Source of the DNA: Desulfobulbaceae bacterium
GTDB lineage: Bacteria > Desulfobacterota > Desulfobulbia > Desulfobulbales > Desulfobulbaceae
NCBI GenBank assembly: GCA_015489765.1
Contig: WFZC01000198.1
Location: 1 to 64,000, forward strand
Reading direction: 5' to 3'
Length of the DNA: 64,000 nt
The notes beneath the pieces are model-generated. The model did not search any database and was not told the origin of the DNA. It worked only from the letters and a program-made list of their open reading frames with translations. Both the position numbers and the translations under genes were made by a program. Positions 2,124-47,287 of this stretch are shown piece by piece (the stretch's first letter is position 1; every line of letters starts with the position of its first letter).

Positions 2124-2717
2124 ATGAGAGATCTGGCCCTGTTTGATTTTGATGGTACCGTGACCAGTCGGGACAGTTTTCTCCTGTTTCTTCGTTATAT
2201 AACCGGGCCAACTTTTCTTCTTCGATGTTTCGTGCTTGCGCCCCGGATTTGTTTTTTTCTTCTGGGCAGGTATGGTAATCATTGTCTTAAAGAGAATTTC
2301 CTGAGGCAGTTCCTTGCTGGCAGGTCAATATCCAGGATTGCTCAAACCGCCACCTGTTTTGCCCGGGAAATTATGCCATCCATTCTCAGACAACAGGCCA
2401 TGGAAGCGATCAGGTTGCACCTGCAACTTGGTGACAGGGTGATCGTTGTTACGGCAACCCCTGAAATGATTCTGCAGCCCTGGTGCCGGGACCAGGGGGT
2501 GGAACTGATCGGGACCAGACTTGAAATTGAGAATGAAATGGTAACTGGTCGGATACTGGGTGACAACTGCCGGGGGAAGGAAAAGGTGCGGCGGCTTAAC
2601 GAGCGATTATCCCCTGCGCAGTATGGCACCATCTATGCCTATGGTGATACCGAGGGTGATCAGCCCATGCTCGAATTAGCCCATGTTGCCTGCTTCAAAC
2701 CTTTCAGAGACTCGTAA
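2124..2717 (+). CDS. HAD-superfamily phosphatase (HAD-IB, SerB-like)
   Basis: The N-terminus carries HAD motif I, FDFDGTVTSRDS, with both aspartates. Motif II (VIVVTATPE) lies in the middle, and motif III/IV (YAYGDTEGDQPML) near the C-terminus supplies the metal-binding acids. At 197 residues it fits the HAD-IB family, which contains phosphoserine phosphatase-like and lipid-linked phosphatases. The substrate cannot be told from sequence. Position inside a polysaccharide locus suggests a sugar phosphate or polyprenyl-linked phosphate, which is inference. Its 3' end overlaps the next ORF by about 35 bases. Confidence 0.85.
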   Translation: MRDLALFDFDGTVTSRDSFLLFLRYITGPTFLLRCFVLAPRICFFLLGRYGNHCLKENFLRQFLAGRSISRIAQTATCFAREIMPSILRQQAMEAIRLHLQLGDRVIVVTATPEMILQPWCRDQGVELIGTRLEIENEMVTGRILGDNCRGKEKVRRLNERLSPAQYGTIYAYGDTEGDQPMLELAHVACFKPFRDS

Positions 2718-4119
2718 ACAGCCGTTGACGGACAGAAAACGACAATATACCACCGCTTGCTGGTGCCGACTCTTCGGTCGAAATCGGGTTTCTATGGTTT
2801 TCTGCCTGGTTGCCATGGTACTGGCATGGTTGGCCATCGTATTGATTTCCCTGGATCATCTGGTTCCCTTTTCGCCCTTGTTGTCCCATCTGTCCACCCG
2901 TTTTCTTGGCCTCCTCGGTTGGGGCACAGCCCTTGTCACGATTTTCTGTCTGGGTCGAGGGCATCTGCGTGCAATCGGCAGTGTTGCGCTTCTATTTTTT
3001 CTCCTTGGGCTGGTCATTGGCTCCTACCTGGAACCACCGGCTGACCCGTTGGAACATCTGCGCAGAATCCATGAGGAGAACTGTGGGAAAATGGCGGCTG
3101 AGGTAGCTCCCGTCAACCGGGGGCTCTGGCATTATTCCATGGCAGGGCTGGTTTTATGCGCAGATGCCGCGCGGGTCAAACCGGTACGGATGCTCTGGAA
3201 AATACGAATTGCCAACGGGTTGTTCTGGGCGCTGGCCGGCGCGGTTCTCTTTCTTGCGGCGATTAAAATCGGACTTCCGTACAGATGGGCCTTTTTGTCG
3301 GTCCTTATCTGTTTTTTATTTTTTGGCACTAACCGGTTCAGTTATTTTCGCTATTACAGCCTGGCGCCTACTTTCACATCCATGCTTATCTATTGGCTCT
3401 GGGGAGTTTACCTGGTCATGCAGGAAAACCGGCGCCGTTTTCTCCTGTTGGCCTTTTGCGGTATATTTTTCCTGCCGGTTTTATGGACAAATCATCGGCA
3501 GGAGGGTGTGTTTCTGGTTTTGCTTCTCGGAGCAGCGATTCTTGTGAATGTGGGAATCTCGCTGGCCGCACGAGGCAACGCATGTCACCGGACCGGCACG
3601 GCAACAAAGTTTCGTTGCTGGGGTCCCCTTGCTGCCTATCTCCTGTTCTTGTTTATCCTTTTGGCTCTGCTGCCCCAGTCAGCGGATTTCCGTGCCTGGC
3701 TGGCCGGTGGTTCCATTCGTCATTTGGGGGCCGGGTACTATAAATATACCTGGCATTTCCGGCACGGTCTTTATCTGGGAGGTACCGACCATGCCTTCCG
3801 GGTGCGGGATACTCTGGGCCTTACGGGCCAGGTTCTTGGACCGGTTTTGATCCTCTATTTCTGGCCTGGATTGGTCCGATTTCCAGTCGAGCGCAAGCTG
3901 CGTATTAGTCTACTGGCCATCCTGCCTTTTATTGGTTATTATACCCCTCTTTTGCATCTGATCTGGGCTTCGAATGTTTATGTGGCTGAATACTACCGGC
4001 TCTGCTATGCATCCATGTTCTGGCTTCTTTTTTCCCATTTTCTTTATGGTCTGGAAGAGCCTCTGGTCCGGTCGGTGCGCCGTTTTTGTCAACCACAATC
4101 CATTGTGGGAGGAAAATGA
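2683..4119 (+). CDS. Polytopic membrane protein, GT-C glycosyltransferase-like (possible N-terminal part of a split gene)
   Basis: About ten hydrophobic segments run through the 478 residues. The loop FSYFRYYSLAPTFT and the later loop with IRHLGAGYYKYTW resemble periplasmic loops of polyprenyl-phosphate-dependent GT-C enzymes, but I see no decisive catalytic DD/DE motif. The annotated ATG overlaps the HAD gene; ATG 2794 (MVFCLVAMVLAWL), at the first membrane segment, is an alternative start. The stop sits in an ATGA overlap with the next ORF, whose product looks like the missing last helix and periplasmic tail of such an enzyme. Family assignment is weak. Confidence 0.6.
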   Translation: MLPASNLSETRKQPLTDRKRQYTTACWCRLFGRNRVSMVFCLVAMVLAWLAIVLISLDHLVPFSPLLSHLSTRFLGLLGWGTALVTIFCLGRGHLRAIGSVALLFFLLGLVIGSYLEPPADPLEHLRRIHEENCGKMAAEVAPVNRGLWHYSMAGLVLCADAARVKPVRMLWKIRIANGLFWALAGAVLFLAAIKIGLPYRWAFLSVLICFLFFGTNRFSYFRYYSLAPTFTSMLIYWLWGVYLVMQENRRRFLLLAFCGIFFLPVLWTNHRQEGVFLVLLLGAAILVNVGISLAARGNACHRTGTATKFRCWGPLAAYLLFLFILLALLPQSADFRAWLAGGSIRHLGAGYYKYTWHFRHGLYLGGTDHAFRVRDTLGLTGQVLGPVLILYFWPGLVRFPVERKLRISLLAILPFIGYYTPLLHLIWASNVYVAEYYRLCYASMFWLLFSHFLYGLEEPLVRSVRRFCQPQSIVGGK

Positions 4120-5188: not shown

Positions 5189-5992
5189 ATGATCAGGAAT
5201 TTTTTTTCTACAATGCGTTTGTTGTTAAAAAATCGGCAACTGATTGTCTCCATGGCCGGCCGGGAGGTGCGAACGCAGTATGCTGGCTCCATACTTGGAG
5301 CGGTGTGGGCCTTTGTCCATCCCCTGGTCCTGATCTTTGTCTTTTGGTTTGTCTTCAGTGTCGGTTTCAAGGCCAAGCCCATGCATGATGTCCCCTTTGT
5401 CGTCTGGTTAACCTCCGGCATGATGCCCTGGTTTCTCTTTTCAGACATTATGATGGGATCGGTGGGCATTGTCGTGGCCCACACCAATTTGATAAAAAAA
5501 AGCCTGTTTCCTTCCGAGGTGCTTCCCCAGGTACGTATAGCCGCCTCTCTTGTCACCCATGCGATTTTTTTGCTGTTACTAGCACTCCTGCTGTTGGCAC
5601 AGGGTATCCCGTTTACCTGGTATTGCCTCCAGTTTTTCTACTATGGGTTCTGTCTTTGCCTCTTGTCCCTGGGGCTTGCATGGCTGGTCTCTTCCGTCAA
5701 CGTGTTCGTCCGGGATGTAACCCATATCGTCGCCGTTGCCATGCAGGTCGGCTTCTGGATGACGCCCATTTTCTGGGACCTGAATATTATGCCGCCCAAG
5801 ATTCAGTTCCTGCTGAAATTAAACCCCATGTACTATATCGTTCAGGGCTACCGGGACAGTTTTATTTATGGTATCGGCTTCTGGCGCCATCCCTATCAGA
5901 CTCTCTATTTCCTGAGTATCTGTTCGGCAAGCCTGTTGGTGGGCCTGTTTGTGTTCGAACGCCTCAAACCGCAATTTGCCGATGTCCTTTGA
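5189..5992 (+). CDS. wzm: ABC-2 polysaccharide exporter permease (Wzm-like)
   Basis: The 267-residue protein has about six membrane helices. It begins with the cytoplasmic stretch typical of Wzm/KpsM/TagG (REVRTQYAGSILGAVWAFVHP). VNVFVRDVTHIVAVAMQVGFWMTPIFW and LNPMYYIVQGYRD are hallmark phrases of this family. It would form the inner-membrane channel that exports a finished, lipid-linked polysaccharide to the periplasm. Its 3' end overlaps the start of the ATPase gene, as usual for wzm-wzt pairs. Confidence 0.92.
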   Translation: MIRNFFSTMRLLLKNRQLIVSMAGREVRTQYAGSILGAVWAFVHPLVLIFVFWFVFSVGFKAKPMHDVPFVVWLTSGMMPWFLFSDIMMGSVGIVVAHTNLIKKSLFPSEVLPQVRIAASLVTHAIFLLLLALLLLAQGIPFTWYCLQFFYYGFCLCLLSLGLAWLVSSVNVFVRDVTHIVAVAMQVGFWMTPIFWDLNIMPPKIQFLLKLNPMYYIVQGYRDSFIYGIGFWRHPYQTLYFLSICSASLLVGLFVFERLKPQFADVL

Positions 5993-7310
5993 CAAAACGG
6001 AAAAAGATTGGCCCGGGAGGAAAGATACCGATCCCGTAATCCGACTGGCACGGGTGGGCAAGGTGTACAGGGTATATACCCGTCAGATCGACAGGATTGT
6101 GGCGGCCCTGTTTCCTTCTGTCCGGGTGCGCTGCCAGCAATTTCATGCCTTAACGGACATTTCCCTCGAGGTCTTCCGTGGTGAGACCGTAGGGATAATT
6201 GGCAGAAACGGCAGTGGTAAATCAACCCTTTTGCAGATAATTTGCCGGATTCTGAGACCCAGCCAGGGTGATGTCCAGGTCCAGGGCCGCATTTCAGCCA
6301 TGCTGGAACTTGGGGCCGGGTTTAATCCCGAGTTCACCGGCCGGGAAAATGTCTACCTCAATGGGGCGATTCTGGGATTGAGCAGGGACGAGATAGATGC
6401 CTGTTTTGCAGAGATCGAGGATTTTGCCGGTATTGGCGAGTTTATCGACCGTCCCGTCAAGACCTATTCCAGTGGTATGTATGTGCGACTCGCCTTTGCC
6501 GTGGCAATAAATGTCCGTCCCGATATCCTTATTGTTGATGAGGCATTATCCGTGGGCGACACACTCTTTCAGGCCAAGTGTTTCGCCAAGTTTCGGCAGT
6601 TCCAGGAACAGGGGGTGACCATTCTTTTTGTGACCCATTCCATGGATCTTATAACCAAATACTGTTCTAGGGCGTTTCTGCTGGAGAAGGGCAAACTGGT
6701 CCGGTCTGGTAAGGCCAAGGAGGTCGTTGATCTTTATAATCGGATGCTGGTGGAAGAATCTTCCGGCGAAGATGAGGAGCAGCCGCGAAATGGCCAGGGG
6801 ATGGCAGGGAAATTGCTTGCCCATCAGAAGGCAAGTGAACATTCCTTCACCTTTAATCCCGATGAGAACCGGTACGGCAACGGCAGAGCGGAAATCGTCC
6901 GCGTGGGCATTTTCGACAAGGAGGGCAAGGCCCGCCAGACCCTGCGCCATGGCCAGGTGTATGATATTGTCATTGAGGCGCGGGCCAATAGTGATCTCGA
7001 AAATCCCATCCTGGCCTTTACCATCAAGGATGTGCAGGGCTTTGATTTATGCGGCACCAATACCTTTTTTCATAATATCGAGACGGGACGGGTGCAACCG
7101 GGCGAGGTCGTTCGGGCAATATTCAGGCAGCGTATTCTGCTGAATGCCGGTTCCTACCTGCTCTCTTTTGGCTGTGCCGCCTTTGAACAGGGTGAGTATG
7201 TAGTGTATGACCGCCGTTATGATCTGATGAGTTTTGAGGTGATCTCCGAACGGCAGAGTGTTGGTTTTTTTGACCTTGATTCAACGGTTTTTGTCGAACG
7301 AGGGGAGTAA
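5982..7310 (+). CDS. wzt: ABC polysaccharide exporter ATPase with C-terminal recognition domain (Wzt-like)
   Basis: The ATPase domain shows Walker A GRNGSGKST near residue 75, the signature region YSSGMYVRLAFA near 160 and Walker B ILIVDEALSVGD near 180. Residues 280-440 form an extra beta-rich domain (HGQVYDIVIEARA, CGTNTFFHNIETG) typical of Wzt proteins that recognise the capped end of an O-polysaccharide. ATG 5982 is preferred to the track start at 5949; it overlaps the wzm stop by 11 bases. The extra domain implies that export depends on a terminal modification of the chain, which fits the methyltransferase/kinase-like gene downstream. Confidence 0.92.
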   Translation: MSFDKTEKDWPGRKDTDPVIRLARVGKVYRVYTRQIDRIVAALFPSVRVRCQQFHALTDISLEVFRGETVGIIGRNGSGKSTLLQIICRILRPSQGDVQVQGRISAMLELGAGFNPEFTGRENVYLNGAILGLSRDEIDACFAEIEDFAGIGEFIDRPVKTYSSGMYVRLAFAVAINVRPDILIVDEALSVGDTLFQAKCFAKFRQFQEQGVTILFVTHSMDLITKYCSRAFLLEKGKLVRSGKAKEVVDLYNRMLVEESSGEDEEQPRNGQGMAGKLLAHQKASEHSFTFNPDENRYGNGRAEIVRVGIFDKEGKARQTLRHGQVYDIVIEARANSDLENPILAFTIKDVQGFDLCGTNTFFHNIETGRVQPGEVVRAIFRQRILLNAGSYLLSFGCAAFEQGEYVVYDRRYDLMSFEVISERQSVGFFDLDSTVFVERGE

Positions 7311-7444
7311 GCAGATTCATTGCAGGCCTACTATTGTTCAGACGTTTTTGGGCAATAAAATTCGCCACTGCGGAGTATCTACCGCCATGAAGATTCAAAA
7401 ATACGCCGTTGTCAGCAATTATCAAGAGAGAGCAGTGTCTCCGC

Positions 7445-10400
7445 ATGTCTTCAGACCTTATCAATGTAAATGATCTTGTTGCCCGCCGGGATGGCGTGTA
7501 CACGCTTTCAGCGGCAACAGACAGGTTTTCCTATTCGGACGGCAGTCACGAGGAAGAGTATATAGCTCAGGCACTGCGGCAGGCGGAGGATCTTTCCTCC
7601 CTGTCCAGGGAGTTGCAAAACTATGAACGGGACTGGGCATCGGAGTGCCATCTTTCCCCGACCCGGGCCAACCTGTACCGGGCCTTTGATTTCAGTGGCG
7701 TGGAGCGGGTGCTTGAAATAGGAAGCGGCTGCGGTGCCATCAGTCGTTTTCTTGGTGAGCAATCCCTGCGGCTTGACTGCATCGAAGGCAGTGTCCGCCG
7801 GGCCGGAATTACCCGTCTGCGCTGTCGTGATCTGGACAATGTGTGCGTGGTAGCGGCTCCATTGCAGAGCTTGCAACTGCCCCGGTCATGGTATGATCTT
7901 GTTATTTTGACCGGGGTGATAGAGTATGCCGGCCTCTATTCCGAAGGCCTTGATCCGGACCGTGCTGTGATTTTCATGTTGGAGCGCCTCCTTGAGACCC
8001 TTGCCCCTGGAGGTAGGATTGTCATCGCCATTGAAAACCGGGCCGGTTTCAAATACCTGGCCGGGGCCGGTGAAGACCATTTCGGCCGTCCCTTTGTCGG
8101 CTTGAGCAACTACCCCCTCTGCAAAGAGATCAGCCACCAACCCGGCCGGGAGGGAATTCGCACCTGGGACAGGAATCAGTGGCGGCGCCTGCTTGCCGGT
8201 TTGAGTGGTGATATCGGGTGCTCATGGCTGTATCCCTTTCCGGACTACAAACTGACCACGGTGTTGCTGAGTTCCCATTTTGTGCGGCAACATCCGGATA
8301 GTACAGCTTCCGTACTCAGCCGTATCCATTCCCGTGACTATATTTCACACTGGCAGCCGGTTATCGATGAATCCCTGTTCTGGCAGACAGCGGCAGCAAC
8401 AGGCACCCTGGAGGAATTTGCCAATTCCTTTGTCCTTGTTCTGTATAAATCGGCGGAAAAAAAAGAGGCATCATCACTTGTTCCCTTTGATTTTGTTCAT
8501 TTTTCCGGTTCCGGACGCAGACCGGAATACCGGGTCATGGTCAAGTACCGGACAGGAGAGGAACTGGTACAGAAAAAACGCCTTTTGGAAATGGCGCAGC
8601 CACCACCGCCAGGACTGGTTCAGCAGCATCTGAGCGATGAACCCTTTTTGGAAGGGCGACTTCTGTCAATGTTCTGGACAGATAGGTTGCGGACCTGCCC
8701 GGGTGATGCTGAGATTGTCGACGCCCTGTTTGGTGAATATTACCGTTTTGTCTGTCACTGCTGTGAACAAGGTCGGCCAGAGGAATTGATTGATCTCATA
8801 CCGTTTAATATTCTTGTTGATCAGGCCGGGAAATGGCATTTTTTTGATCAGGAATGGCGGCTGGCCAAGCCCGTTACTCCTCATTTTATATTTTTTCGCG
8901 GTATTTTTTATTTTTTTCTTGAGAATCGTGATCTTTTCAAATCGCTTTGCTCCCGGATCGGTTTAGTAACAGGGGATGATTTTCTTTTCTATGTTCTCGA
9001 ACGTTTTTTGTACAGCTCGGAGTTTGATCTAAAGGAGTTTGTTGCCCTCGAGGAGGAAATACAGGCAGCCATAAGCGGGAGGTCCGCCTCCGGTCCCTTT
9101 CGGGAGGCGCTTGCCGCCGGTTTTGAGGCCGTCGATAACGGTTACCCGCCGGAAAACAGTGTCGGTCTGGCCTGGCAGGGATGTGAGCGTCCTTTATTAC
9201 CGCAGAACATGGTTCCTGTGGATGGCGGTCAGCGATTGCAGTTTGACCTGCCAGTCACTTTCCTGAAATCACCATTTTTTCAGATTCGCCTCAATCTGCC
9301 CAAGCCATGGCATGACAGGGTCTTTGTTTTAGAGGATTTTTCGCTTTGGCTCGTTAGTGATGATGCAACAACATCTGCTCTTTTTCCGGTGGATCAGGAT
9401 AGAGTATTACCCCCATTGATGAATCTGACCGCTCTTGTCGCCGTGGAAGAGTCTGCTGCCGAGCCGGCCTTTATGGTTGTGGACGGCCCTGTACAGGTGT
9501 TTCATCTCGAATCAGTCTGGCATGACAGCAAGGAAATTACCCTGGAGGAGACGAGGGTGTGTTGTTCCTTTTCTCTCCGATTTACCGGGGAAAAGGGGAC
9601 GGAGCTGCGTCTGCGTACCCTGACAGAGGAGCATCAACGGCTTGAAAGCGCGTTGTATGAGAAAAAAATCCGGTTGGCTGCAATGGAACAGTCACGGCTC
9701 TGGAAAGGCGTGACGCTGGTCAGGGAGCTTAAACAATACCTGCTCGCCTTTGTACGGCCAAAAAAGAACACCAGAATTATGGATACTCAGTCTCCGGAAA
9801 GTGGAGACAGGCCGATGATTTCCGTTCTTCTGGTCACTCGTGACCTTGATCCCGGAGAACTCAATGATACCCTTGCGTCACTTCTGGCACAAAGCGGGCC
9901 GTCCTGGGAGTTGATCGTCCTTGATGACGGTTCAACCAACGGAGCTACCCTGGCAGCCTTGAAACGGGTAAAGGACCCTCGGGTAAGAGTTCATTTTCTC
10001 AAGAAAAAACGGGGCATCCCGGCTGCGCTCAATGAAGGTGTTCGGATTGCCAGAGGACAGTGGCTGACCTTCCTAGGCCAGTTCGATCGTTTTCATCCCG
10101 ATACCCTTGCCCGGGCCGCTGGGTATCTCACCGATGAAAACGTGGATGCAATTTTTTTTGATGAAGAGATCATTGATCGAAATTGTACGGTGATACATAC
10201 CCGGCACCGACAGGATTTTGGTCCTGACTATGACGGGCAGGAAGACCCCCTCGGTCCCTCACTCTTTATACGTCGGGAACTTGTCCGCGGGCTTGGCGGG
10301 TTCAATTCCGAGGTGGAAGGCGTGCATCTCTTTGATCTTGCCATGCGGGCCCTGGCGAGTGGGGCGGTGATTCGTCATGGCAGCGAGACCCTGTACCGGT

Positions 10401-10489
10401 TACGATGGTTCGAGGAACCCGAGGCCGGCGAACAGGCCCGGCTGAAGAGTTGCATCAGGCAGGTAGTGGCCGGGAGTAAAGAAGGATAA
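7445..10489 (+). CDS. Methyltransferase + kinase-like domain + coiled coil + GT2: candidate WbdD-type chain capper fused to a glycosyltransferase
   Basis: ATG 7445 (MSSDLINVND) is preferred to the track's TTG 7409. Near residue 95 VLEIGSGCGAISRF is a SAM-binding motif I. Residues 320-500 contain a degenerate kinase-like region: VMVKY could hold the ATP lysine, DLIPFN near 450 resembles the catalytic loop DxxPxN, and FFDQEW the metal-binding loop. Residues about 720-760 are charged and heptad-like. From about 790 a GT2 domain begins (ISVLLVTRD, LIVLDDGST). WbdD of E. coli O9a has methyltransferase, kinase and coiled coil and sits beside wzm/wzt; the same order plus a GT2 appears here. The methyltransferase and GT2 calls are strong, the kinase call moderate. 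Confidence 0.75.
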   Translation: MSSDLINVNDLVARRDGVYTLSAATDRFSYSDGSHEEEYIAQALRQAEDLSSLSRELQNYERDWASECHLSPTRANLYRAFDFSGVERVLEIGSGCGAISRFLGEQSLRLDCIEGSVRRAGITRLRCRDLDNVCVVAAPLQSLQLPRSWYDLVILTGVIEYAGLYSEGLDPDRAVIFMLERLLETLAPGGRIVIAIENRAGFKYLAGAGEDHFGRPFVGLSNYPLCKEISHQPGREGIRTWDRNQWRRLLAGLSGDIGCSWLYPFPDYKLTTVLLSSHFVRQHPDSTASVLSRIHSRDYISHWQPVIDESLFWQTAAATGTLEEFANSFVLVLYKSAEKKEASSLVPFDFVHFSGSGRRPEYRVMVKYRTGEELVQKKRLLEMAQPPPPGLVQQHLSDEPFLEGRLLSMFWTDRLRTCPGDAEIVDALFGEYYRFVCHCCEQGRPEELIDLIPFNILVDQAGKWHFFDQEWRLAKPVTPHFIFFRGIFYFFLENRDLFKSLCSRIGLVTGDDFLFYVLERFLYSSEFDLKEFVALEEEIQAAISGRSASGPFREALAAGFEAVDNGYPPENSVGLAWQGCERPLLPQNMVPVDGGQRLQFDLPVTFLKSPFFQIRLNLPKPWHDRVFVLEDFSLWLVSDDATTSALFPVDQDRVLPPLMNLTALVAVEESAAEPAFMVVDGPVQVFHLESVWHDSKEITLEETRVCCSFSLRFTGEKGTELRLRTLTEEHQRLESALYEKKIRLAAMEQSRLWKGVTLVRELKQYLLAFVRPKKNTRIMDTQSPESGDRPMISVLLVTRDLDPGELNDTLASLLAQSGPSWELIVLDDGSTNGATLAALKRVKDPRVRVHFLKKKRGIPAALNEGVRIARGQWLTFLGQFDRFHPDTLARAAGYLTDENVDAIFFDEEIIDRNCTVIHTRHRQDFGPDYDGQEDPLGPSLFIRRELVRGLGGFNSEVEGVHLFDLAMRALASGAVIRHGSETLYRLRWFEEPEAGEQARLKSCIRQVVAGSKEG

Positions 10490-10643: not shown

Positions 10644-11630
10644 ATGAAAAAATTTACAAAAAGACTGTCCTCGGTAAGCTATAGGCGTTTTGTCCAGGTC
10701 TTTTTTGCTGATGTTTGTATAAGATACGCTTTGGTTGCAGGGCTTCTGCTGGCGAATGTATTGTGTCTGGCAACGGTTGCCAGCGCCTATGAGGTTGTTT
10801 TAGGATTGGGTTCCACTGCCGGTGAGGCGGCAACGGCGGCCATGGGCGATCGCAGCAAGTGGCCAACCGTCGCCGACAACACCTGGGGTGTTCTGGCAAA
10901 TTATTACCCCATTGCTCTGTTACCGGCGAATCAACGGGCCGCCGTGCTGGCCAACCCAAGCAGGAAGCAAGCCATTGTCGAGATTCCCTACGAAGATATC
11001 GCCTGGAACAGTGGCCAGGGGCATATTTCCTCTATCGAAAGTTACGGCTATACAACCCCTTATCTTCTGATTCTCAATGAGGCGCATCAGGACTCGATGA
11101 TGACCAGAAGCGAACTTATCAGGGTAAAAGCACGGTTTCCCAATAAAATAGTCGTGATGAATACCCGGTCATGGGAGAGTGACAGGACACAGGTGCAATC
11201 CCTTGCCGATGTGCTTGACGGTGTCTGTATTGAATATATTCCCACCAATGTTCCTTATAATATCAACAGGCATGTCTCGCCGTTTTTTGAGTGGGCAGTA
11301 AAAAATAACAAGGTCATCATGTTCCTGATGCCGCCGCAACCGACCGATTATATGGGTACGAGGTATATTGACGGCGTCATGACAGCGGTAAAAACCATCT
11401 ATAACTACAACAAAAATCGTTTACCCTTCGGCTGGATGGCAAGCGGTAAGATTTTTTTTATTCCGGCTAATTACACCTACGGCACCAGCCGTATACCCTA
11501 TGTTCCTGAAACCGGGACAAATACGATCCTGGCCACCATGAAAAAACTCATGGAGATGCGGAAGGAACTCGATGCCCTCGGCAACAACGCTCCATCAATA
11601 ACCCCCATGTTACAGTTACTGCTGGACTAA
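10644..11630 (+). CDS. Secreted protein of unknown function
   Basis: A long signal peptide (ALVAGLLLANVLCLATVASA) is followed by a mature protein of about 280 residues. Internal phrases such as YLLILNEAH, DGVCIEYIPTN and VIMFLMPPQ resemble beta strands of a TIM-barrel glycoside-hydrolase-like fold, with acidic residues at strand ends. I recognise no specific family. The C-terminus is MLQLLLD, similar in character to the end of the SGNH protein at 37653 (LELLLLH). Its place after the exporter genes suggests a periplasmic role in polysaccharide handling, which is inference. Confidence 0.65.
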   Translation: MKKFTKRLSSVSYRRFVQVFFADVCIRYALVAGLLLANVLCLATVASAYEVVLGLGSTAGEAATAAMGDRSKWPTVADNTWGVLANYYPIALLPANQRAAVLANPSRKQAIVEIPYEDIAWNSGQGHISSIESYGYTTPYLLILNEAHQDSMMTRSELIRVKARFPNKIVVMNTRSWESDRTQVQSLADVLDGVCIEYIPTNVPYNINRHVSPFFEWAVKNNKVIMFLMPPQPTDYMGTRYIDGVMTAVKTIYNYNKNRLPFGWMASGKIFFIPANYTYGTSRIPYVPETGTNTILATMKKLMEMRKELDALGNNAPSITPMLQLLLD

Positions 11631-11768: not shown

Positions 11769-12704
11769 ATGACCAAAAAAATTCAACCATATCTGCAGAT
11801 TGCCCGGTTTGACCACTGGTTCAAAAATGTGTTTATGCTTCCAGGCATGATCGTGGCCCTGATAGTTCGTCCGGATTTGTTGTCCCTGCCCCTGGCGGTC
11901 AGGATCACTCTTGCCGTTTTTGCGGCCGGCTTGGTGGCTTCAAGCAATTATGTGATCAATGAACTGCTTGATGCCCCCTTTGATGCCCTGCATCCGGTCA
12001 AGAAAAACAGGCCTGTGCCGTCCGGACGTATCAATAAATCCGTTGCCTATGCGCAGTGGTTGCTTTTTGCTGCCGTGGGCTTTGCCATCTCTGCCCTGCT
12101 GGGAAAAATATTTTTCGCCGTGGCCGTGACGCTCTGGATCATGGGATGCGTGTATAATATTCCACCGCTGCGAAGCAAGGATAAACCATATCTTGATGTC
12201 CTGAGTGAATCCGTGAACAACCCGCTTCGTCTGCTCATGGGATGGTATGCCACCGGCATTACTGTTGTGCCGCCGGTTTCGTTGTTGCTGGCCTACTGGA
12301 TGATTGGCGCCTTTTTTATGGCTGTCAAGAGATTTGCCGAATACCGCTATATTGACAGTCCTGAGGTGAGTGGCGCCTATCGTCGTTCCTTTGTCCACTA
12401 TACAGAAGAGCGTCTTCTTATCAGTATTGTCTATTATGCGGTGGCCTTTGGTCTTTTTTTTGGTATTTTTCTGATTCGATATCGTATGGAACTGATTCTG
12501 TCCATTCCTTTGATTGCCGGTTTTGTTGCATGGTATATTCACCTTGGTTTTCTTGACAACAGCCCAGCCCAGTACCCGGAACATCTCTATCGGCAACGGG
12601 GGTTTTTCTGGTACTGCGTTTTCATGTCCGTGGCCATCACCATGTTGTTCTTCGTAGATGTTCCTGTTCTGCACACCATTTTCAAGCCTACTATCTCTCT
12701 CTAA
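11769..12704 (+). CDS. UbiA-family prenyltransferase, decaprenyl-phosphate phosphoribosyltransferase-like
   Basis: About nine membrane helices with two acid-rich loops mark the UbiA superfamily. NELLDAPFDALHPVKKNRP near residue 62 is the first prenyl-diphosphate site, and SKDKPYLDVLSES near 135 the second. The wording, including ARFDHWFKNVFMLPG at the start and LLMGWYATG, is closest to the group that transfers 5-phosphoribose from PRPP to polyprenyl phosphate. The product would be a donor for pentofuranose residues. No DprE1/DprE2 epimerase pair is seen in the window, so the final sugar is open. Confidence 0.8.
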   Translation: MTKKIQPYLQIARFDHWFKNVFMLPGMIVALIVRPDLLSLPLAVRITLAVFAAGLVASSNYVINELLDAPFDALHPVKKNRPVPSGRINKSVAYAQWLLFAAVGFAISALLGKIFFAVAVTLWIMGCVYNIPPLRSKDKPYLDVLSESVNNPLRLLMGWYATGITVVPPVSLLLAYWMIGAFFMAVKRFAEYRYIDSPEVSGAYRRSFVHYTEERLLISIVYYAVAFGLFFGIFLIRYRMELILSIPLIAGFVAWYIHLGFLDNSPAQYPEHLYRQRGFFWYCVFMSVAITMLFFVDVPVLHTIFKPTISL

Positions 12705-12794: not shown

Positions 12795-14492
12795 ATGACT
12801 TCAACGCGCCGCTCCTGGTTGAGTAACCAAAAACAATTTGTCCTGTTATTCAGCCTGTCTCTGGTGTTCAGTTTGTGGGTGACGATCATGCTGGGCAATA
12901 GATGTCGTTCAACCCATCTTAATATCACGGTTCAAGCCGATCAGACCGGGCAGGCAAGCCTGCAGATATTTTATGATTTCGGCCAGGGGTTTCAGTCCAT
13001 CGGCCATCAGGTATGCGCCGTGCGCAGTGGGAAAGGTGGTCAACTTGTCCGTTTTTTTGTTCCTGATCAAAAGGTGACGGGAGTACGTCTTGTGGCGGCT
13101 GGTTCCATGGAGATAGAGAACATTCGACTGGTCAATGTCCATAACGCCCTTATACGGGAAATATCTCCACATCTTTTCATTGCCACGGGTGGCAGCCAGG
13201 CGGATGTGGTGCAATCCGAAAAAGGGTTGCGAGTCGAGTCAGTCATGCCGTCCCCGGGAGTTGCCCTTGAGTACAATTCACCTCTTGGTAATCACTATGG
13301 ATTTCGACCTCTGTTCTGCGTTGTTGTGTTGGCGCTTACCTATTTCTGTCTTTGGGTTGTCTCCTCGCTGGCCGGAAAGGTATTAAGAGGGATGGGCATA
13401 CCCTCATGTAAAACCACGCCCGGTTCTGTTTCTCCTGCATTATCTTTCTGGCATTTTTTGCTTCTCTCAACAGGAGCGCTCTGTCTTGCCGGAGGTGTAA
13501 TGCTTTGGATTGCCGAAGGTTGGTATCATTCCGAGTCGAAGCAGCATGATACTGTACTTGAACCATATCTTTTCAAGGCCAATACGGAGCGAATTTCTAT
13601 TATGAGAGAACCCGGCAACCTGTCCCTGGCTGGAACTCTTTACCATCCTTTCCCGGAAACGGAGCAGGGTGATGTGATTCTTTTATTGCATGGTAATTAT
13701 CCGGAAGGAAGCAGTTTCCCCCTGTACAGGGTACTTGCCGCGGAACTGGCCAGGCAGGGGCACCTGGTTCTGACGATTGATTTTCCCGGTTTTGGGATGT
13801 CACCTGATCCGTTTGCCGCCGGAAGCGCGGCAGGTTTGGATCAAACCCATGATGTTCGTGCCGCCCTGCGCTTCCTTGAGGGTTTGCCTGCGGTCGGAAC
13901 CAGGCCCATTCATCTGATTGGTCATTCGATGGGCGCTGAGTCTGCTCTCCGTGTTGGCCTGAAAGAAGAACGGGTAGCTTCAATCGTGTTGATCGGGCCC
14001 CCTCGCCGGGTGTATCAGCGCTTTCATTATCAGCCGGATGTGGATTTATTCTGGAACTGGTTGCTTGATTCCAGAAAGAAGGTATATGCCGACAGTGAAT
14101 TACCCAGCTGGTTCACCAAGGAGTATTGGCGCAGGAAATGTCTTGCCAAGGATATGGTCCATGATCTCCCCGCCCTCGGCGCCTGGAGTCATAAGCCTGT
14201 TTTCTTAATCGAAGGGGAGCGGGAACTGGGTCATGATCGGCGGTACCTGCGTTGGTACTATTGTCGTATTTCCTGGCCCAAGCGTTTTATGACCCTTGTC
14301 GGGGCCGATCACGAGTGCAATGTTAAAAAAGAGAACGGTCGTATCATCTATGATCCCAAGGTGACGGATCAGCTCATGAGGACTCTTGATAGCTGGTTTA
14401 CCCAAGAGAGGGCGCGGCGAACCGGCCTAACGGATAGGGTTTTCAATCTGTTTCGCCGTGGTTTTGCCATTGATATGCTTACCGGCTGTTGA
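12795..14492 (+). CDS. Membrane protein with periplasmic beta-sandwich and C-terminal alpha/beta hydrolase
   Basis: A first helix (VLLFSLSLVFSLWVTIML) leads into about 130 beta-rich residues (LNITVQADQTGQASLQIFYD). Two more helices follow (residues 170-250). From about 270 an alpha/beta hydrolase fold begins, with oxyanion segment LLLHGNYPEG, nucleophile elbow GHSMG near 375 and a likely histidine in VGADHE near the end. An esterase, deacylase or acyltransferase acting on surface glycans is plausible. The gene overlaps the convergent epimerase gene by 14 bases. Confidence 0.72.
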   Translation: MTSTRRSWLSNQKQFVLLFSLSLVFSLWVTIMLGNRCRSTHLNITVQADQTGQASLQIFYDFGQGFQSIGHQVCAVRSGKGGQLVRFFVPDQKVTGVRLVAAGSMEIENIRLVNVHNALIREISPHLFIATGGSQADVVQSEKGLRVESVMPSPGVALEYNSPLGNHYGFRPLFCVVVLALTYFCLWVVSSLAGKVLRGMGIPSCKTTPGSVSPALSFWHFLLLSTGALCLAGGVMLWIAEGWYHSESKQHDTVLEPYLFKANTERISIMREPGNLSLAGTLYHPFPETEQGDVILLLHGNYPEGSSFPLYRVLAAELARQGHLVLTIDFPGFGMSPDPFAAGSAAGLDQTHDVRAALRFLEGLPAVGTRPIHLIGHSMGAESALRVGLKEERVASIVLIGPPRRVYQRFHYQPDVDLFWNWLLDSRKKVYADSELPSWFTKEYWRRKCLAKDMVHDLPALGAWSHKPVFLIEGERELGHDRRYLRWYYCRISWPKRFMTLVGADHECNVKKENGRIIYDPKVTDQLMRTLDSWFTQERARRTGLTDRVFNLFRRGFAIDMLTGC

Positions 14493-15498
14493 GCAATTTT
14501 TTATAATCGGTCAACCCCTGTTCCAGGGTATACCGAGGGGTGAAGGCAAGCAGTTTTTTGGATTTGCTGATATCAAACCCGTTGTCCGTGTTAAAAAATT
14601 CAAGGGTTCTTCGTGAGATAGGTGGTTCCTTACCCAGCGCGGTAAAACATGCCTCGGAAACGGTGGCAATGAGTACGCCCAGGGGATAGGGCAAGGTAAG
14701 TAATGGACCAGGCAATTCCAGGACCCGGGAAAAGGTATTGACCAGTTCCCTGGTGGTGACAATCTCGTCTCCGCCGATGATCATCATTTCGCCCACTGGT
14801 TCATCCCGTGTCATGGCCAGCCGGAAACTCTCCAGCATATCCTTGATATACATGGGATGCCGTTTGTTGAGTCCCTTGCCGATCATGATAAAACGGCGTT
14901 TTTTCAGCATCCGATGGAGTTTGGCCGTACGCGGACATCCGGCGCCATAGATCCAGGCCGGTCGCAAGATGACATATTCCATGTCGCAGGCCTCGCAGAC
15001 GCGTTGTACCTCCTGTTCACCGGCCAGCTTGGTCTCGCCGTAGATGGACTGGGGGTGACAGGGGGTCTGTTCGTCGGCTGGGATAGTTGTCAGCTTGCCG
15101 TACGCCCCCACCGAACTGATATGTATAAAACGGCGTACTCCGGCCTGGTGTGCTTTTTCCAGCAGTGTGCGCAGGCCGTGAACGTTGATATCCCAGTATT
15201 CCTTTTCATCCAGACTGATCTGCAGGTGGGCGCTGGCCAGATGAAAAATTACTGTTTTGCCGGCCAGGGCCCGCTCGGTTTTCTCCCAGTCGCGAAAGTC
15301 ATGGCACAGTTTCGTAAAGCGGGGCACGGAACCGTCTGCTGTGTGTTGCGGGAAATGGACATCCATTCCGTCCACTCTGTGCCCCAGATCATGAAAATAG
15401 TTGGCCACATGATAGCCGAGAAACCCGCCGGCGCCGGTAACCAGAATGTTTTCCTTGTGCTGTTGCATGCTGTCGGCGTTCAGGTTTTCAGACATCAC
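14479..15498 (-). CDS. NAD-dependent epimerase/dehydratase (extended SDR)
   Basis: ILVTGAGGFLGYHVANYF near residue 20 is the NAD-binding motif and YGETKLAGE near 150 holds the YxxxK catalytic pair, with a preceding serine in HISSVGAYG. The 339-residue length fits sugar-nucleotide epimerases or the related 3-beta-hydroxysteroid-dehydrogenase-like branch; RRTLEFFNTDNGFDISKSK near the end leans to the latter. It is the last gene of the minus-strand block and overlaps the upstream methyltransferase gene by 11 bases. The substrate is unknown, possibly a polyprenyl-linked or nucleotide sugar. Confidence 0.82.
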   Translation of the reverse strand: MMSENLNADSMQQHKENILVTGAGGFLGYHVANYFHDLGHRVDGMDVHFPQHTADGSVPRFTKLCHDFRDWEKTERALAGKTVIFHLASAHLQISLDEKEYWDINVHGLRTLLEKAHQAGVRRFIHISSVGAYGKLTTIPADEQTPCHPQSIYGETKLAGEQEVQRVCEACDMEYVILRPAWIYGAGCPRTAKLHRMLKKRRFIMIGKGLNKRHPMYIKDMLESFRLAMTRDEPVGEMMIIGGDEIVTTRELVNTFSRVLELPGPLLTLPYPLGVLIATVSEACFTALGKEPPISRRTLEFFNTDNGFDISKSKKLLAFTPRYTLEQGLTDYKKLLNSR

Positions 15499-16602: not shown

Positions 16603-18111
16603 TCAATAATGCCTGGAATTCCGCCTCTGAAAATAGTCACGCAGCAGTTCTATTTCCCGCTGTTCACGATCAGTGTTCCAGCCAAAGACCCGGGCCAGCA
16701 CAGGAGCTGTCCGCAGCGCCCTGGCCGGGTTGTCTCCAATGGTGGTGCGCCGCAGGATCAGGTCGTCGAGATGGACGACACTTTGAGCCTGAATGATTGA
16801 TTCGATTTGTTGCCGCCAGCTCCGGTCATGCTCATGGGGTTGCCAGTCCCAGGCAAAACGTCCGGGATGGGTAAAACTGCAGTCGCCCATCTCCCGGTTT
16901 TGAACAGGTTTGTCGTCGGGAAAGATAGTCTTCAGGGTTTTTTGCGCCACCTTGCGGGCGGTGGTAAACTTGATGCCCGAGACGGTGTACAGGCCGCGGG
17001 GTCCGCCGTTTGCGCCATGGTCCTTAATGACTTCCCGAACAGTCAGGGTATTGCCGCCCTGCTTTTTCACCGGCAGCAGGCCGCTGTAGATGTGGAGAAT
17101 GTCATTGGTGGTCAGTTCCAGGCCGGGAACGGCATGGTTGAGATGGTCGAGATAGCGTTGGACGGACTCCTGTTCCGGCATAGGGGTATCGCTGACTCCC
17201 GGCCATGGTTCATGAATGGTGCCGCCCATGATCAGGCCATGCCAGCCATGGAGAAAATACATGCGCGCATCGGGCAGATCCGGTTTTACCGCCAGGGAAT
17301 GGCTGGAAAGTGCAGGCCGGTTAAAGAGGATGTTCCAGGCAATGGAATAGCGAAACAGGGCTGGATCGTCCCGGTCAAAATTTTTGGCCAGTTCCCGGCA
17401 CCAGGGGCCGGCGGCATTGATGACTCGATCGGCTCGGAACCGGTAATGCTGTCCGGATTCCGTGTCCACGGCCTCCACACCGCGGACCATATTGTTTTCC
17501 CTGATCAAGCCGGTGACCCTGGTATAGTTGAGGGCGCTGGCGCCGGCCTGACAGGCCTGGGCCAGCATCTCCATGATAACCAGTTGCGAGGAGGGCATGC
17601 CGCCGTCATACCAGAGCGCTCCCCCCTTAAGCCCCTTGCGGTTGACTGACGGAAAAAGACGAATGACCTCTTCCGGTTTCAGCACCCGCCCGGCCGGCAA
17701 CCGCTGCTCCTGATCTATTCCACGGTTGCGGTGCATGGAGAGGAGATCGTTCAGGGCCAAGGCAATACGGAAAACAGCGGGCCGGTACATTCCATTGCCA
17801 TAAAGCGGCATCAGGCAGGGCAGCGGTGTCACCAGGCCAGGGAACCGTTGCATGAACCAGCGTCGTTCCCCCACGGATTCAAAAAATCGCGGCAAATCCA
17901 TCTTTTGCAGATAGCGGAGCCCGCCATGGACCGTGCGCAGCGAGTTATAGGATGTTGCCCAGCCAAAGTCCTTTTGGTCAATGAGCAGGCAGGAATGGCC
18001 GGCTTCGGCGCTGACCAGGGCCAGGGCAACGCCATATACCCCGGCCCCGATGATGATCAGGTCAAACTGTCGGCTTTCGGCCGCCTGGTGATCTCTATTG
18101 ATGGTTATCAT
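16603..18111 (-). CDS. FAD-dependent glycerol-3-phosphate dehydrogenase-like oxidoreductase (GlpD/GlpA family)
   Basis: The N-terminus has the FAD motif DLIIIGAGVYGVALALVSAEAG with an acidic end of the second strand (LLIDQKDF). The GlpD signature SLRTVHGGLRYLQ follows, and later RVINAAGPWCRELA and SGIKFTTARKVA match the family. Canonical members oxidise glycerol-3-phosphate to dihydroxyacetone phosphate at the membrane. Its place between an asparagine synthase and a methyltransferase in a polysaccharide locus suggests action on a glycerol-phosphate-like or sugar-derived hydroxy acid instead, which is inference. It overlaps the asparagine synthase gene by four bases. Confidence 0.82.
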   Translation of the reverse strand: MITINRDHQAAESRQFDLIIIGAGVYGVALALVSAEAGHSCLLIDQKDFGWATSYNSLRTVHGGLRYLQKMDLPRFFESVGERRWFMQRFPGLVTPLPCLMPLYGNGMYRPAVFRIALALNDLLSMHRNRGIDQEQRLPAGRVLKPEEVIRLFPSVNRKGLKGGALWYDGGMPSSQLVIMEMLAQACQAGASALNYTRVTGLIRENNMVRGVEAVDTESGQHYRFRADRVINAAGPWCRELAKNFDRDDPALFRYSIAWNILFNRPALSSHSLAVKPDLPDARMYFLHGWHGLIMGGTIHEPWPGVSDTPMPEQESVQRYLDHLNHAVPGLELTTNDILHIYSGLLPVKKQGGNTLTVREVIKDHGANGGPRGLYTVSGIKFTTARKVAQKTLKTIFPDDKPVQNREMGDCSFTHPGRFAWDWQPHEHDRSWRQQIESIIQAQSVVHLDDLILRRTTIGDNPARALRTAPVLARVFGWNTDREQREIELLRDYFQRRNSRHY

Positions 18112-19994
18112 GATGCAAGCCAGCGATTCTGCCAGTCGGAAAAGACGATAAGGGCCCAGAGAATATGGCTGTGATTTTCACGGCCGCTGCGATGTTCTTT
18201 AATAAGCCGTTCCACCGTCGGCCATTGAAAGATGCCATCCCGGCGGATGGAGTCTTCCCTGAGGTAGGTGTCCATGATCGGCCGAAACTCTTTGTTGAGC
18301 CACTGCTTGATCGGGATACTGAAGCCCTCTTTGGGCCTGTATACGCATTGACGGGGGATATGGCGGGCTGCCACCCGTTTCAGTATGGCCTTGGTTTGTC
18401 CTTTTTCCAGTTTGAACCGGGCCGGGATTCGAAAGGCAAGGGAGACCATGTCCGGATCCAGGTAGGGCACCCTGGTTTCCAGAGAAACGGCCATTGACAT
18501 GCGGTCTACTTTGGTCAGGATATTGTCACAGAGATAGCTGCGAGTATCCACATAGAGCTGTCGTTGGAGTTCTTCGCGGTTACCGGCCCTGGCAAACAGG
18601 TCTTCGATGTGTCGTGCCGTCGGATCAGTGATGACCTCCCGCGCCTCGCGGGTGAACAGCGCCTCACGCAGCCTGTCACTGACAAACAGCCGCCAGCGGG
18701 CATGTTCCAGTGACCGGAGGAGGGCGGCGCCTTCAACGAATCGTCTTGCCTTGTTGATCAGCCCCTTTTTTTTGCCTGTTGGCGGCAGGGAGGTAACAAG
18801 GGGGCCGATGATATTTCGGCGGAGAAAGCGTGGTAACCGATCGTAGAGCCGGCAGCTCTGCTGGGCCAGATAGGTTTCGTATCCTCCAAAAAGCTCATCG
18901 CCACCGTCACCGCTCAGCGCCACGGTGACGTGTTGGCGCGCGAGCCGGGAAACCAGATAGGTGGGAAAGATGGAAAAATCACCAATGGGATCATCCATGA
19001 ACTGCATCAGGTGGGAGAACAGTTTGTACACGTCGGGACGGATGATCTCGTCGGTATGGTCAACACCGAGATGCTCGGCAACGGTCCTGGCCCAGCCCAG
19101 TTCGTTGTAGGTGGGATCGTCAAAGCCTATGGAAAAGGTCTGCACCCGGCCCATGGCCGCGGTAATAAGTGATGAATCAACCCCGCCGGAGAGAAAGGCG
19201 CCCAGGGGGACGTCACTGATCATCTGCATCCTGGTGGAACGAAAGAGCTGGGCCTCGATCCGTTCTTCCCAGTCACGGCTGCTCAGGTGTATGTCTTCTG
19301 CTGGATCGGGGCGGGGAATATCCCAGTACTGACGTTGAACCATGTTCCCTGTTTCAAGGTCAATACTGGCCATCTCACCCGGCCCCAGTTTGTGAATTCC
19401 GGACAAAAGAGTGGCGTGGCCGGGGATATATTCCCAGGAGAGAAAGGAGGCCAGGGAGTTGATATCAAGCTCGCGCATGATGAGTCCGGATGCCAGCAGG
19501 GCCTTGATTTCCGAGCCGAAGACCAGATAATCCCGGTTGATATAATAGTAGAGCGGCTTGATGCCAAGATGGTCCCTGGCCAGGATAAAACGGTGTTTTT
19601 TGCGGTCATGCAGGCCAATGGCAAACATGCCGTTGAGAATCTCCGGCACCCGGTCTCCATGGGTTTCATAGCCATGGACAATGGTTTCGGTATCCGACTC
19701 GCTGCCAAACCGGTGGCCCTGCTGAATGAGCCGGGTTTTCAGGTCGGGGTAGTTGTAAATTTCGCCGTTGAAAACGGTCCAGATGGTGCGGTCTTCGTTG
19801 TAAATTGGTTGCGACCCACCGTTTAAGTCGATGATCGCCAGCCGCCGCATGCCCATGGCGACTCCGTCGTGCAGGGCCAGTCCTTTTTCATCCGGTCCCC
19901 GGTGATAGAGGGTGGCCACCATGTTCTCCAACCGGTTGCCGTCATCTTCGGCACAGACCCCGCTGAATCGGACAAATCCACAGATACCGCACAT
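18108..19994 (-). CDS. asnB: Glutamine-hydrolysing asparagine synthetase-type amidotransferase (first copy)
   Basis: The mature N-terminus would be Cys2 (MCGICGFVRF), the class II glutaminase nucleophile. The synthetase half has the PP-loop AFLSGGVDSSLITA and SGDGGDELFGGYETY. At 628 residues it is the usual size. Homologues in polysaccharide and exosortase-type loci are thought to amidate uronic or other sugar acids rather than make free asparagine. The stop of the upstream GT4 gene and this start share one base, indicating translational coupling. Confidence 0.9.
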   Translation of the reverse strand: MCGICGFVRFSGVCAEDDGNRLENMVATLYHRGPDEKGLALHDGVAMGMRRLAIIDLNGGSQPIYNEDRTIWTVFNGEIYNYPDLKTRLIQQGHRFGSESDTETIVHGYETHGDRVPEILNGMFAIGLHDRKKHRFILARDHLGIKPLYYYINRDYLVFGSEIKALLASGLIMRELDINSLASFLSWEYIPGHATLLSGIHKLGPGEMASIDLETGNMVQRQYWDIPRPDPAEDIHLSSRDWEERIEAQLFRSTRMQMISDVPLGAFLSGGVDSSLITAAMGRVQTFSIGFDDPTYNELGWARTVAEHLGVDHTDEIIRPDVYKLFSHLMQFMDDPIGDFSIFPTYLVSRLARQHVTVALSGDGGDELFGGYETYLAQQSCRLYDRLPRFLRRNIIGPLVTSLPPTGKKKGLINKARRFVEGAALLRSLEHARWRLFVSDRLREALFTREAREVITDPTARHIEDLFARAGNREELQRQLYVDTRSYLCDNILTKVDRMSMAVSLETRVPYLDPDMVSLAFRIPARFKLEKGQTKAILKRVAARHIPRQCVYRPKEGFSIPIKQWLNKEFRPIMDTYLREDSIRRDGIFQWPTVERLIKEHRSGRENHSHILWALIVFSDWQNRWLAS

Positions 19995-21184
19995 CAGGCC
20001 ACCTGCTCCAGCACCCGCCGCAGTTTTTCCACATAGGCTGTGCGTGAATATTCACGTTGGTAAAGCTTGCCGGCATTGGCGGCTATTTCCGTGGCCCGGC
20101 CATCAGGGTCCAGGGCCTCCATGATGCCATGGGCCATGTCTTCGGGGTCGAGCTGGACGAGAAAGGCCACCTCCGGGGTCAGTACCTGGGTATGAGAATA
20201 AATATCCGTTGCCACCAGGGGAATGCCCGAGGCGAGCTGTTCATAGATTTTAAGCGGGGTGTTGGTGCCGCTGCTGCGGGGAGAAACCAGTACATCGGCC
20301 TGCTCGATATAGGCCCTTGCCTGGTCCTGGGGAATGCGGCCGGTGAAGATAATGGTTTTATCAGCGCCGCACTCGCGGGCAAGGGTACGGTACCGGTCCA
20401 CCTGTTCCGCGGTGCCGCCGACAATGATGCAGCCAATTTGTGGTTCCTTTTTCGAGATTACGCCCATGGCCCGGACCAGCACGTCGATGCCCTGGTAGCT
20501 TTCCAGAGTACCGGCGTATACGACACGTTTTTTAAACGCATCCGGAATCGGGACCGGAAGCTTCTCGTTGCTTTGCTCTTGCCCGGAAGAAGCAGGCGTG
20601 GCCAACCGAACCGGATCAAAAATCGAATTTTCAATAAGAAAATTTTTTTTGTTCCCCGGCAGGGTTTTTTCCACATAATTGTAGAGATCGGGACAGATGG
20701 TAATAATTGCGTCGCTGACGGCCAGACTTTTGTTTTCCAGCCAGGTAAACAGGGTAATCAGCGGCTTGAAACGGGAGTACTCAAAGTTTGCAAGCTGTTG
20801 GGGCAGGCTCGAGTGCATGTCATAAATCAGCTTGAACCGGAAAATGGGCTTGAGGAACAGGGCCATGAAAACCGCCTCCTCATGGGCGTGCACGCAATCA
20901 TAGCGGTTGCGCACAAGCAGGCTGATCATCCTGAGAAAGATGAACATGTCGTGAACGAGTTTTAATGCCGATGGCCCGATTTTGACAGGCCCCAGAAAGC
21001 GGAGAGCCGGGGTCCGGAAGAAACGAACATTGTTGATCAGGACGTCATCGCCCTGGCCATAGGTGAGAAAATCCTGCTCTACCCCCAGTTCCGAGGCAAT
21101 CATGGTTCGATAGTAGACGGAGAAGGGAGTGCCCCGGGGGCTGAAAAAGGGCTGTGGGGCAATGACCAGCGTTTTAAGTTTCAT
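19994..21184 (-). CDS. Glycosyltransferase family 4
   Basis: The N-terminal half begins MKLKTLVIAPQPFFSPRGTPFS, typical of a GT4 acceptor domain. The C-terminal half has KRVVYAGTLESYQGIDVLVRAM and the donor-site motif SPRSSGTNTPLKIYEQLASG with the EX7E-like region. The start at ATG 21184 is preferred; the track begins at a GTG four codons upstream. It would transfer a nucleotide-activated sugar with retention. It is followed without gap by the asparagine synthase gene. Confidence 0.88.
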   Translation of the reverse strand: MKLKTLVIAPQPFFSPRGTPFSVYYRTMIASELGVEQDFLTYGQGDDVLINNVRFFRTPALRFLGPVKIGPSALKLVHDMFIFLRMISLLVRNRYDCVHAHEEAVFMALFLKPIFRFKLIYDMHSSLPQQLANFEYSRFKPLITLFTWLENKSLAVSDAIITICPDLYNYVEKTLPGNKKNFLIENSIFDPVRLATPASSGQEQSNEKLPVPIPDAFKKRVVYAGTLESYQGIDVLVRAMGVISKKEPQIGCIIVGGTAEQVDRYRTLARECGADKTIIFTGRIPQDQARAYIEQADVLVSPRSSGTNTPLKIYEQLASGIPLVATDIYSHTQVLTPEVAFLVQLDPEDMAHGIMEALDPDGRATEIAANAGKLYQREYSRTAYVEKLRRVLEQVA

Positions 21185-21204
21185 GGGAAGCTGCACAATG
21201 CTGT

Positions 21205-22452: not shown

Positions 22453-22522
22453 AAAACCGGCATGACCGCACCAGGTCGGCCGGCCGTAACAAACAATGGA
22501 AATCCCTGGTTTCGGTATGTCG
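22453..22522 (+). repeat. REP-like repeat, diverged copy
   Basis: ACCAGGTCGGCCGGCCGTAA followed by CAAACAATGGAAATC aligns with 53786-53820, where the same order of blocks occurs with a few substitutions. It lies just upstream of the true start of the second asparagine synthase gene, so the first 32 codons of the track ORF are repeat sequence, not protein. Confidence 0.6.
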
Positions 22523-22557
22523 CCTCCATGGAACCCTGGAATTTCCGGATGAAAAAA

Positions 22558-28880: not shown

Positions 28881-29101
28881 GACATGGCATATATTCACGC
28901 GTTTTTCCATTAAAATCAGGGAGAGGAGCAGCTTTGAGCCTCCTTGAAAAAAATCTGATACCTGATATATTTATTTTTTGTCCTGTTCAGGTGTTCGGCT
29001 GTAAGAACCTGTTGCAATTCCCTGTTCTGTTATCATCGCGGTTTTCCTTACCGGCACGACCGGATCAGACCATTTCATTACAAGAAACAATCCAACCATG
29101 A
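28877..29101 (+). CDS. Doubtful small ORF filling the gap between a methyltransferase and a GT2 gene
   Basis: This 74-codon ORF starts in an ATGA overlap with the upstream stop and ends in an ATGA overlap with the GT2 start, exactly as coupled genes do elsewhere in the locus. Its product (MRHGIYSRVFPLKSGRG) looks unlike a conserved protein, and the DNA is more AT-rich than its neighbours. It may be chance; the same stretch holds a promoter-like pair. Confidence 0.22.
   Translation: MRHGIYSRVFPLKSGRGAALSLLEKNLIPDIFIFCPVQVFGCKNLLQFPVLLSSRFSLPARPDQTISLQETIQP
28944..28971 (+). promoter_or_regulatory. Sigma-70-like promoter candidate before a GT2 gene
   Basis: TTGAAA and TATATT are separated by 16 bases in an AT-rich stretch about 130 bases upstream of the GT2 start at 29098. 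Confidence 0.28.
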
Positions 29102-47275: not shown

Positions 47276-47287
47276 ATTTTCCCGGTT

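Follow-up and report, generated by a model that had tools for sequence, protein, structure and literature searches.

The length of polysaccharide chains that are exported by ABC transporters depends on the coupling between the polymerase and the chain terminator. In the stretch of DNA analysed here (64,000 nucleotides from a Desulfobulbaceae bacterium, contig WFZC01000198.1, positions 1 to 64,000; hereafter the window), a gene located directly downstream of wzm and wzt encodes, on one chain, a methyltransferase, a kinase fold, a beta-sandwich, a short coiled coil and a glycosyltransferase (GT2) fold. This locus raises the question to which type of terminator the protein belongs and what a polymerase-like module contributes to it. 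A sequence-only reading had described the protein as a WbdD-like methyltransferase-kinase-coiled coil fused to a GT2 domain, of which the architecture and the linkage to the exporter genes hold up, while membership of the WbdD family does not.

The gene product and its catalytic domains

The gene (7445-10489, forward strand) is an open frame of 1014 amino acids that starts with an ATG at 7445 and of which the stop codon ends at 10489; an in-frame TTG is also present upstream, at 7409. A full-length copy with 91% identity is found in another genome of the same genus (L022, hereafter the congener), so the frame is real and not a chance frame. In the whole protein, Pfam matched only the methyltransferase (residues 90-192) and the GT2 (residues 805-921), no Pfam match was obtained for residues 200-790, and among 64 relatives no family was matched consistently by Pfam. 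Directly downstream, a 328-aa protein with a signal-peptide-like start and no Pfam match is encoded at 10644-11630, and the congener has it too.

The SAM-dependent methyltransferase and its N-terminal extension comprise residues 1-330 (7445-8434). The match to Methyltransf_12 (E 4.5e-6) is just below the gathering score, and residues Y30, G93, G95, E114 and Y161 are conserved among the 81 proteins compared. At one SAM-site position, the window protein has a cysteine (C68) where most relatives have a tyrosine.

The kinase-fold domain has been assigned to residues 331-547 (8435-9085) using AlphaFold, Foldseek and a profile match to choline kinase. An AlphaFold model of residues 330-552, built from a 64-member alignment, has a mean pLDDT of 92.7 over residues about 330-552, and the best 50 PDB matches listed by Foldseek are all kinase-like (CurKC, RIO, PRPK, WbdD, APH, AceK and others), with weak to modest E-values (best 7.5e-3). 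A structure prediction lacking a kinase fold in this region would have counted against the sequence-only reading, which thus passes this check, and the WbdD structures 4ax8 (probability 0.82) and 4azs appear as the fifth and tenth matches, respectively. Among the matches listed in PDB searches with the single sequence and with small profiles, no kinase was present for the middle region; the 64-sequence profile had choline kinase as its best match, aligned on the catalytic loop, with an E-value of 0.011. As the sequence searches gave just this match, the kinase fold of the middle region is supported by the model.

The putative kinase active site, D450-x-x-P453-x-N455 ... D468-x-E470-W471 (8792-8857), was earlier regarded as degenerate. 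However, the catalytic Asp450, Asn455 and the metal-binding Asp468 are intact and shared by about 75 of the 81 relatives, P453, E470, W471 and R485 are likewise kept in nearly all of them, and it is the GT2 motifs of the protein that are degenerate. The column of the N-lobe lysine varies between K, R and Q across the family, which counts against the kinase reading.

Relation to ORF6-O7, WbdD and WbbB

The family of O7-type terminators was described in 2024 (PMC11231755). Its characterised member, ORF6 of Klebsiella pneumoniae O7, consists of a methyltransferase, an unannotated kinase of 223 residues, an Ig-like CBM, a coiled coil and two GT2 modules, and it ends the chain with a 3-O-methyl-phosphate, a cap that was made both in vitro and in vivo (PMC11231755). 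The D441A variant of ORF6-O7 lost kinase activity in vitro and export was blocked in vivo, and its reported SAM-site residues are Y28, Y66, G91, G93, E112 and Y158 (PMC11231755). A relative on a plasmid of Pseudomonas asturiensis has these same six residues under the same numbers and D443 for D441. D450 of the window protein aligns with this D443 and corresponds by its number to the D441 published for ORF6-O7, and of its SAM-site set (Y30, C68, G93, G95, E114, Y161) five of the six residues are kept compared to ORF6-O7, with one tyrosine replaced by cysteine.

The beta-sandwich domain (residues 548-717, 9086-9595) occupies the place that the Ig-like CBM has in ORF6-O7. It was modelled by AlphaFold with a pLDDT of 76.5, and its Foldseek matches are weak and mostly to Ig-like or other beta-sandwiches. 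It is followed by a candidate coiled coil at residues 718-749 (9596-9691). The heptad-rich segment noticed earlier is thus present, but it is short: AlphaFold and a heptad scan show a single helix of 32 residues. When the window is compared with the congener, the coiled coil and linker have an omega of 1.3 (p 0.54), indicating no detectable constraint.

The window protein resembles ORF6-O7 in its domain order, in the correspondence of the catalytic Asp and SAM-site residues, and in its association with an ABC-transporter O-antigen pathway. It differs in having one GT2 instead of two, with the DXD motif and the catalytic Asp lost (two of the three corresponding Asp residues are replaced), in its short coiled coil, and in belonging to another bacterium and another glycan. 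Placed by architecture and by residue correspondences that are bridged via relatives, its nearest characterised relative is ORF6-O7 and not WbdD.

With WbdD of Escherichia coli O9a (PMC3482155; PDB 4azs, 4ax8), the window protein shares the methyltransferase, the kinase fold and the coiled coil, the location beside wzm and a wzt with Wzt_C, the same presumed cap and a short match around the catalytic loop of WbdD at D351. Unlike WbdD, it has an extra beta-sandwich and a fused GT2, and where WbdD has a long coiled-coil ruler with a polymerase-recruiting amphipathic helix at the C-terminus, it has a helix of ~32 residues followed by the GT2 fold. A true WbdD orthologue that gained a GT2 would explain the shared order of methyltransferase, kinase and coiled coil and the presence of WbdD among the best structural matches. 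This origin is nevertheless extremely improbable, since there is no significant sequence match, the beta-sandwich is additional, and ORF6-O7 appears to fit every domain. Between the kinases of WbdD and the window protein, hhalign aligns 25 columns only, with a probability of 4.5%, and WbdD is absent among the matches listed in PDB sequence searches with the terminator or its profiles. The two proteins would thus share a working mode but belong, by sequence, to different families.

WbbB terminates its chain by means of a glycosyltransferase (Kdo). Like WbbB of Klebsiella O12 (described in PMC11231755), the window protein unites a terminator with a coiled coil and GT modules in a single polypeptide; unlike it, the terminator is a methyltransferase-kinase, and the C-terminal GTs of WbbB are active.

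By analogy with the biochemistry of ORF6-O7, a methyl-phosphate is most likely the product and chain termination most likely the role of the window protein. We consider it likely that it is an O7 ORF6-type chain terminator of the Wzm-Wzt pathway in which the clade to which it belongs has kept the GT2 fold as a non-catalytic module. In this mechanism, the kinase domain would phosphorylate the non-reducing end of the lipid-linked glycan, after which the methyltransferase would methylate that phosphate. The methyl-phosphate cap would stop elongation and be recognised by the C-terminal domain of Wzt for export. Of the remaining parts, the beta-sandwich is the probable holder of the glycan, and the distance to the membrane-side machinery may be set by the coiled coil. 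The earlier idea of an export-coupled chain terminator is therewith probably right.

A cap made in a single step has also been considered, in which the protein solely methylates, as O8-serotype WbdD does, or solely phosphorylates. C68, which replaces the conserved tyrosine of the SAM site, would fit with this, and some relatives from Arenicella are without a kinase, so such caps probably exist in the family. However, the SAM motif and the kinase triad are intact in the window protein and both domains are constrained (omega of 0.17 for the methyltransferase and 0.25 for the kinase, from the pair of window and congener), which makes a single-step cap unlikely. The Arenicella relatives in question (L048, L051, L053 and L054) have kept the methyltransferase but neither the kinase nor most of the other parts, are about 415 aa long and are encoded right after wzt. 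By analogy with O8 WbdD, they are possibly methyl-only terminators.

Exporter linkage and distribution of the family

Directly upstream of the terminator gene, wzm (5189-5992, forward strand; Pfam ABC2_membrane 1.1e-15) encodes the ABC-2 permease of the polysaccharide exporter and wzt (5949-7310, forward strand; ABC_tran 3.7e-23) encodes its ATPase. It had been noted before that this Wzt carries the extra C-terminal domain that reads caps, and the match to Wzt_C (PF14524; about 6864-7277) with an E-value of 1.9e-37 confirms this. Wzt_C was also found in all five neighbouring Wzt proteins tested.

In a family survey with one genome per species, relatives of the terminator were found in many phyla (276 confirmed stretches, 80 of which were kept). 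Relatives are also present in 22 of the 258 genomes of the order. For 67 loci, 2.6 kb or more of upstream sequence was available. In 27 of these, which include many close relatives, wzt precedes the terminator on the same strand by no more than 400 bp, and in 35 it is present anywhere in the locus. The other 40 have no adjacent wzt, indicating that the family is not tied solely to the Wzm-Wzt exporter. The association between terminator and wzt is strong but not universal. O7-type terminators thus occur in many phyla, not only in the alpha- and gammaproteobacteria and cyanobacteria of the published survey, and often lie beside a wzt that bears Wzt_C.

The many relatives without an adjacent wzt would also fit with a kinase-like protein that acts on another substrate, a protein or a lipid, and that lies close to wzm-wzt for other reasons. 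This is very unlikely, given the biochemistry of ORF6-O7 and the recurrence of the order wzm-wzt-terminator in distant taxa. Both plasmid-borne relatives also have wzt adjacent upstream, and on the Citrobacter braakii plasmid pF217-3 (L129 8923-10872) this order is accompanied by rhamnose genes, as rmlBACD-wzm-wzt-terminator-GTs. Two further loci (L027 and L030) share the order of the window: flaA1-like, membrane protein, wzm, wzt, terminator.

Several variations on the architecture were observed. In the kinase of the C. braakii terminator, the second metal-binding Asp is a Glu (E464). By eye, a second methyltransferase-like domain is present after the kinase in L035 (1-2496) and L039 (4641-6932), replacing the coiled coil and the GT2. 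In the Nitrospirales (L063, L066 and L071), the core lies within frames of about 3000-3500 aa that have several GT2-like segments, and there is no wzt in the locus. The terminators of L030 and L035 are without a GT2, and a separate GT2 gene is found directly downstream (L030) or one gene further (L035), indicating that the GT2 module is sometimes fused and sometimes stands alone.

The GT2 fold and the search for a polymerase

The GT2-fold domain of the window protein comprises residues 788-1002 (9806-10450), and the Pfam match within it has an E-value of 2.3e-19. Most family members with a fused GT2 have the residues of an active chain-building module, and the motifs D-x-D-D and Q-D are nearly invariant among the fused and neighbouring GT2 domains of O7-type terminators. 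In the window protein, D-x-D-D is replaced by G878-Q-F880-D881 (10076-10087), and L962 (10328-10330) is found in place of the D of the QD motif of active relatives. The same type of change, G-x-F/Y-D combined with HL, HF or EY, is present in four proteins: the window protein, the congener, Candidatus Desulfobulbus rimicarensis (L023) and a Desulfocapsa (L024). All four have non-ligands (G, F/Y) at both metal-ligand positions and L, F or Y for the catalytic Asp, and the domain is therefore predicted to be catalytically dead. Partial changes of the GT2 motifs are seen in a few other members (L087, L045 and a neighbour gene in L057).

When a tree was built from the methyltransferase-kinase core, leaving out the GT2, these four proteins formed one clade (support 98/97), and its neighbour in the tree, L046, has intact GT2 motifs. 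One loss in a common ancestor is therefore the simplest reading of the sequences. The tree of the GT2 domains also groups the four, but on long branches, for which the program gave a warning. For the pair of window and congener, the GT2 has an omega of 0.18 (Fisher p = 6e-11 against neutrality). As this constraint is similar to that of the methyltransferase and the kinase, the domain does not appear to be decaying and probably has a function other than catalysis in this clade.

The sequence-only reading suggested that the GT2 domain could couple the last sugar addition to capping. For this, the GT2 would still have to be active, either independently of metal or through other residues. Purifying selection on the domain and the retained first nucleotide-binding motif, VLDDGST, speak for such activity. 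In addition, the GT2 modules of ORF6-O7, with D975/D977/D978 and N1230/D1232, are both active, and as the second works with N-x-D instead of D-x-D, the motif is not absolute (PMC11231755). On the other hand, both the metal site and the catalytic Asp are lost in all four proteins, their GT2 domains are on long branches, and replacement of the three corresponding Asp residues of ORF6-O7 by alanine abolished transfer (PMC11231755). An active GT2 is therefore rather improbable, and, given the lost motifs, the coupling is not supported in the form in which it was suggested.

Under the favoured reading, an O7-type terminator with a non-catalytic GT2, the loss of metal binding and of the catalytic base means that elongation must fall to other GTs, and the fold may have been kept for docking, glycan holding or nucleotide sensing. 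A fused polymerase module seems to have turned into a non-catalytic scaffold. More specifically, a conserved pseudo-glycosyltransferase could recruit or gate a separate polymerase or hold the growing chain, which would make the clade an intermediate between the fused O7-type and the two-protein WbdD-type machines; we give this proposal an even chance. The O7-type terminator family was already known, and the conserved, apparently inactivated polymerase module is the new part; searching the literature on inactive GT2 domains turned up no relevant work. A terminator clade that has the fold of a polymerase without its chemistry separates the physical role of this fold from its catalytic role.

Among the candidate GTs examined, none could be identified with confidence as the polymerase for this glycan. 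A stand-alone GT2 with intact motifs at 29005-29997 (forward strand; Pfam GT2 4.4e-30) is a possible separate chain builder. It shares 65% identity with the GT2 that is encoded immediately downstream of the terminator in L024 and is present in all four genomes of the clade, but as it is also found in 80 of the 258 genomes of the order, its link to the terminator is weak and it was not retained as a dedicated partner. Another active GT2, of 571 aa and encoded on a different contig (L128), was rejected as well: two of the four genomes of the clade have no match to it, and its match in G123 is that genome's own terminator GT2. The other GTs in the window are a GT4 at 19997-21196 and GT2s at 47276-48109 and 48046-49047.

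The wzm-wzt-terminator genes are flanked by a HAD phosphatase (2124-2717), a polytopic membrane protein (2683-4119) and a UbiA prenyltransferase (11769-12704). The membrane protein (478 aa) has no Pfam match above threshold, and L027 and L030 have homologues at the corresponding position. This set recalls the three-component pentofuranose systems, which consist of a UbiA-HAD polyprenyl-phosphoribose synthase, a flippase and a GT-C (PMC11127046). Near the UbiA gene, an epimerase/dehydratase (14479-15498) and a FAD oxidoreductase (16603-18111) are encoded, which by analogy are possibly a pair like DprE2/DprE1 for arabinofuranose. Further downstream, two asparagine-synthase-like genes and an MBOAT-like membrane protein were recognised by eye (18108-19994, 22462-24492 and 24598-26055), and this region looks, also by eye, like a mixed exopolysaccharide cluster.
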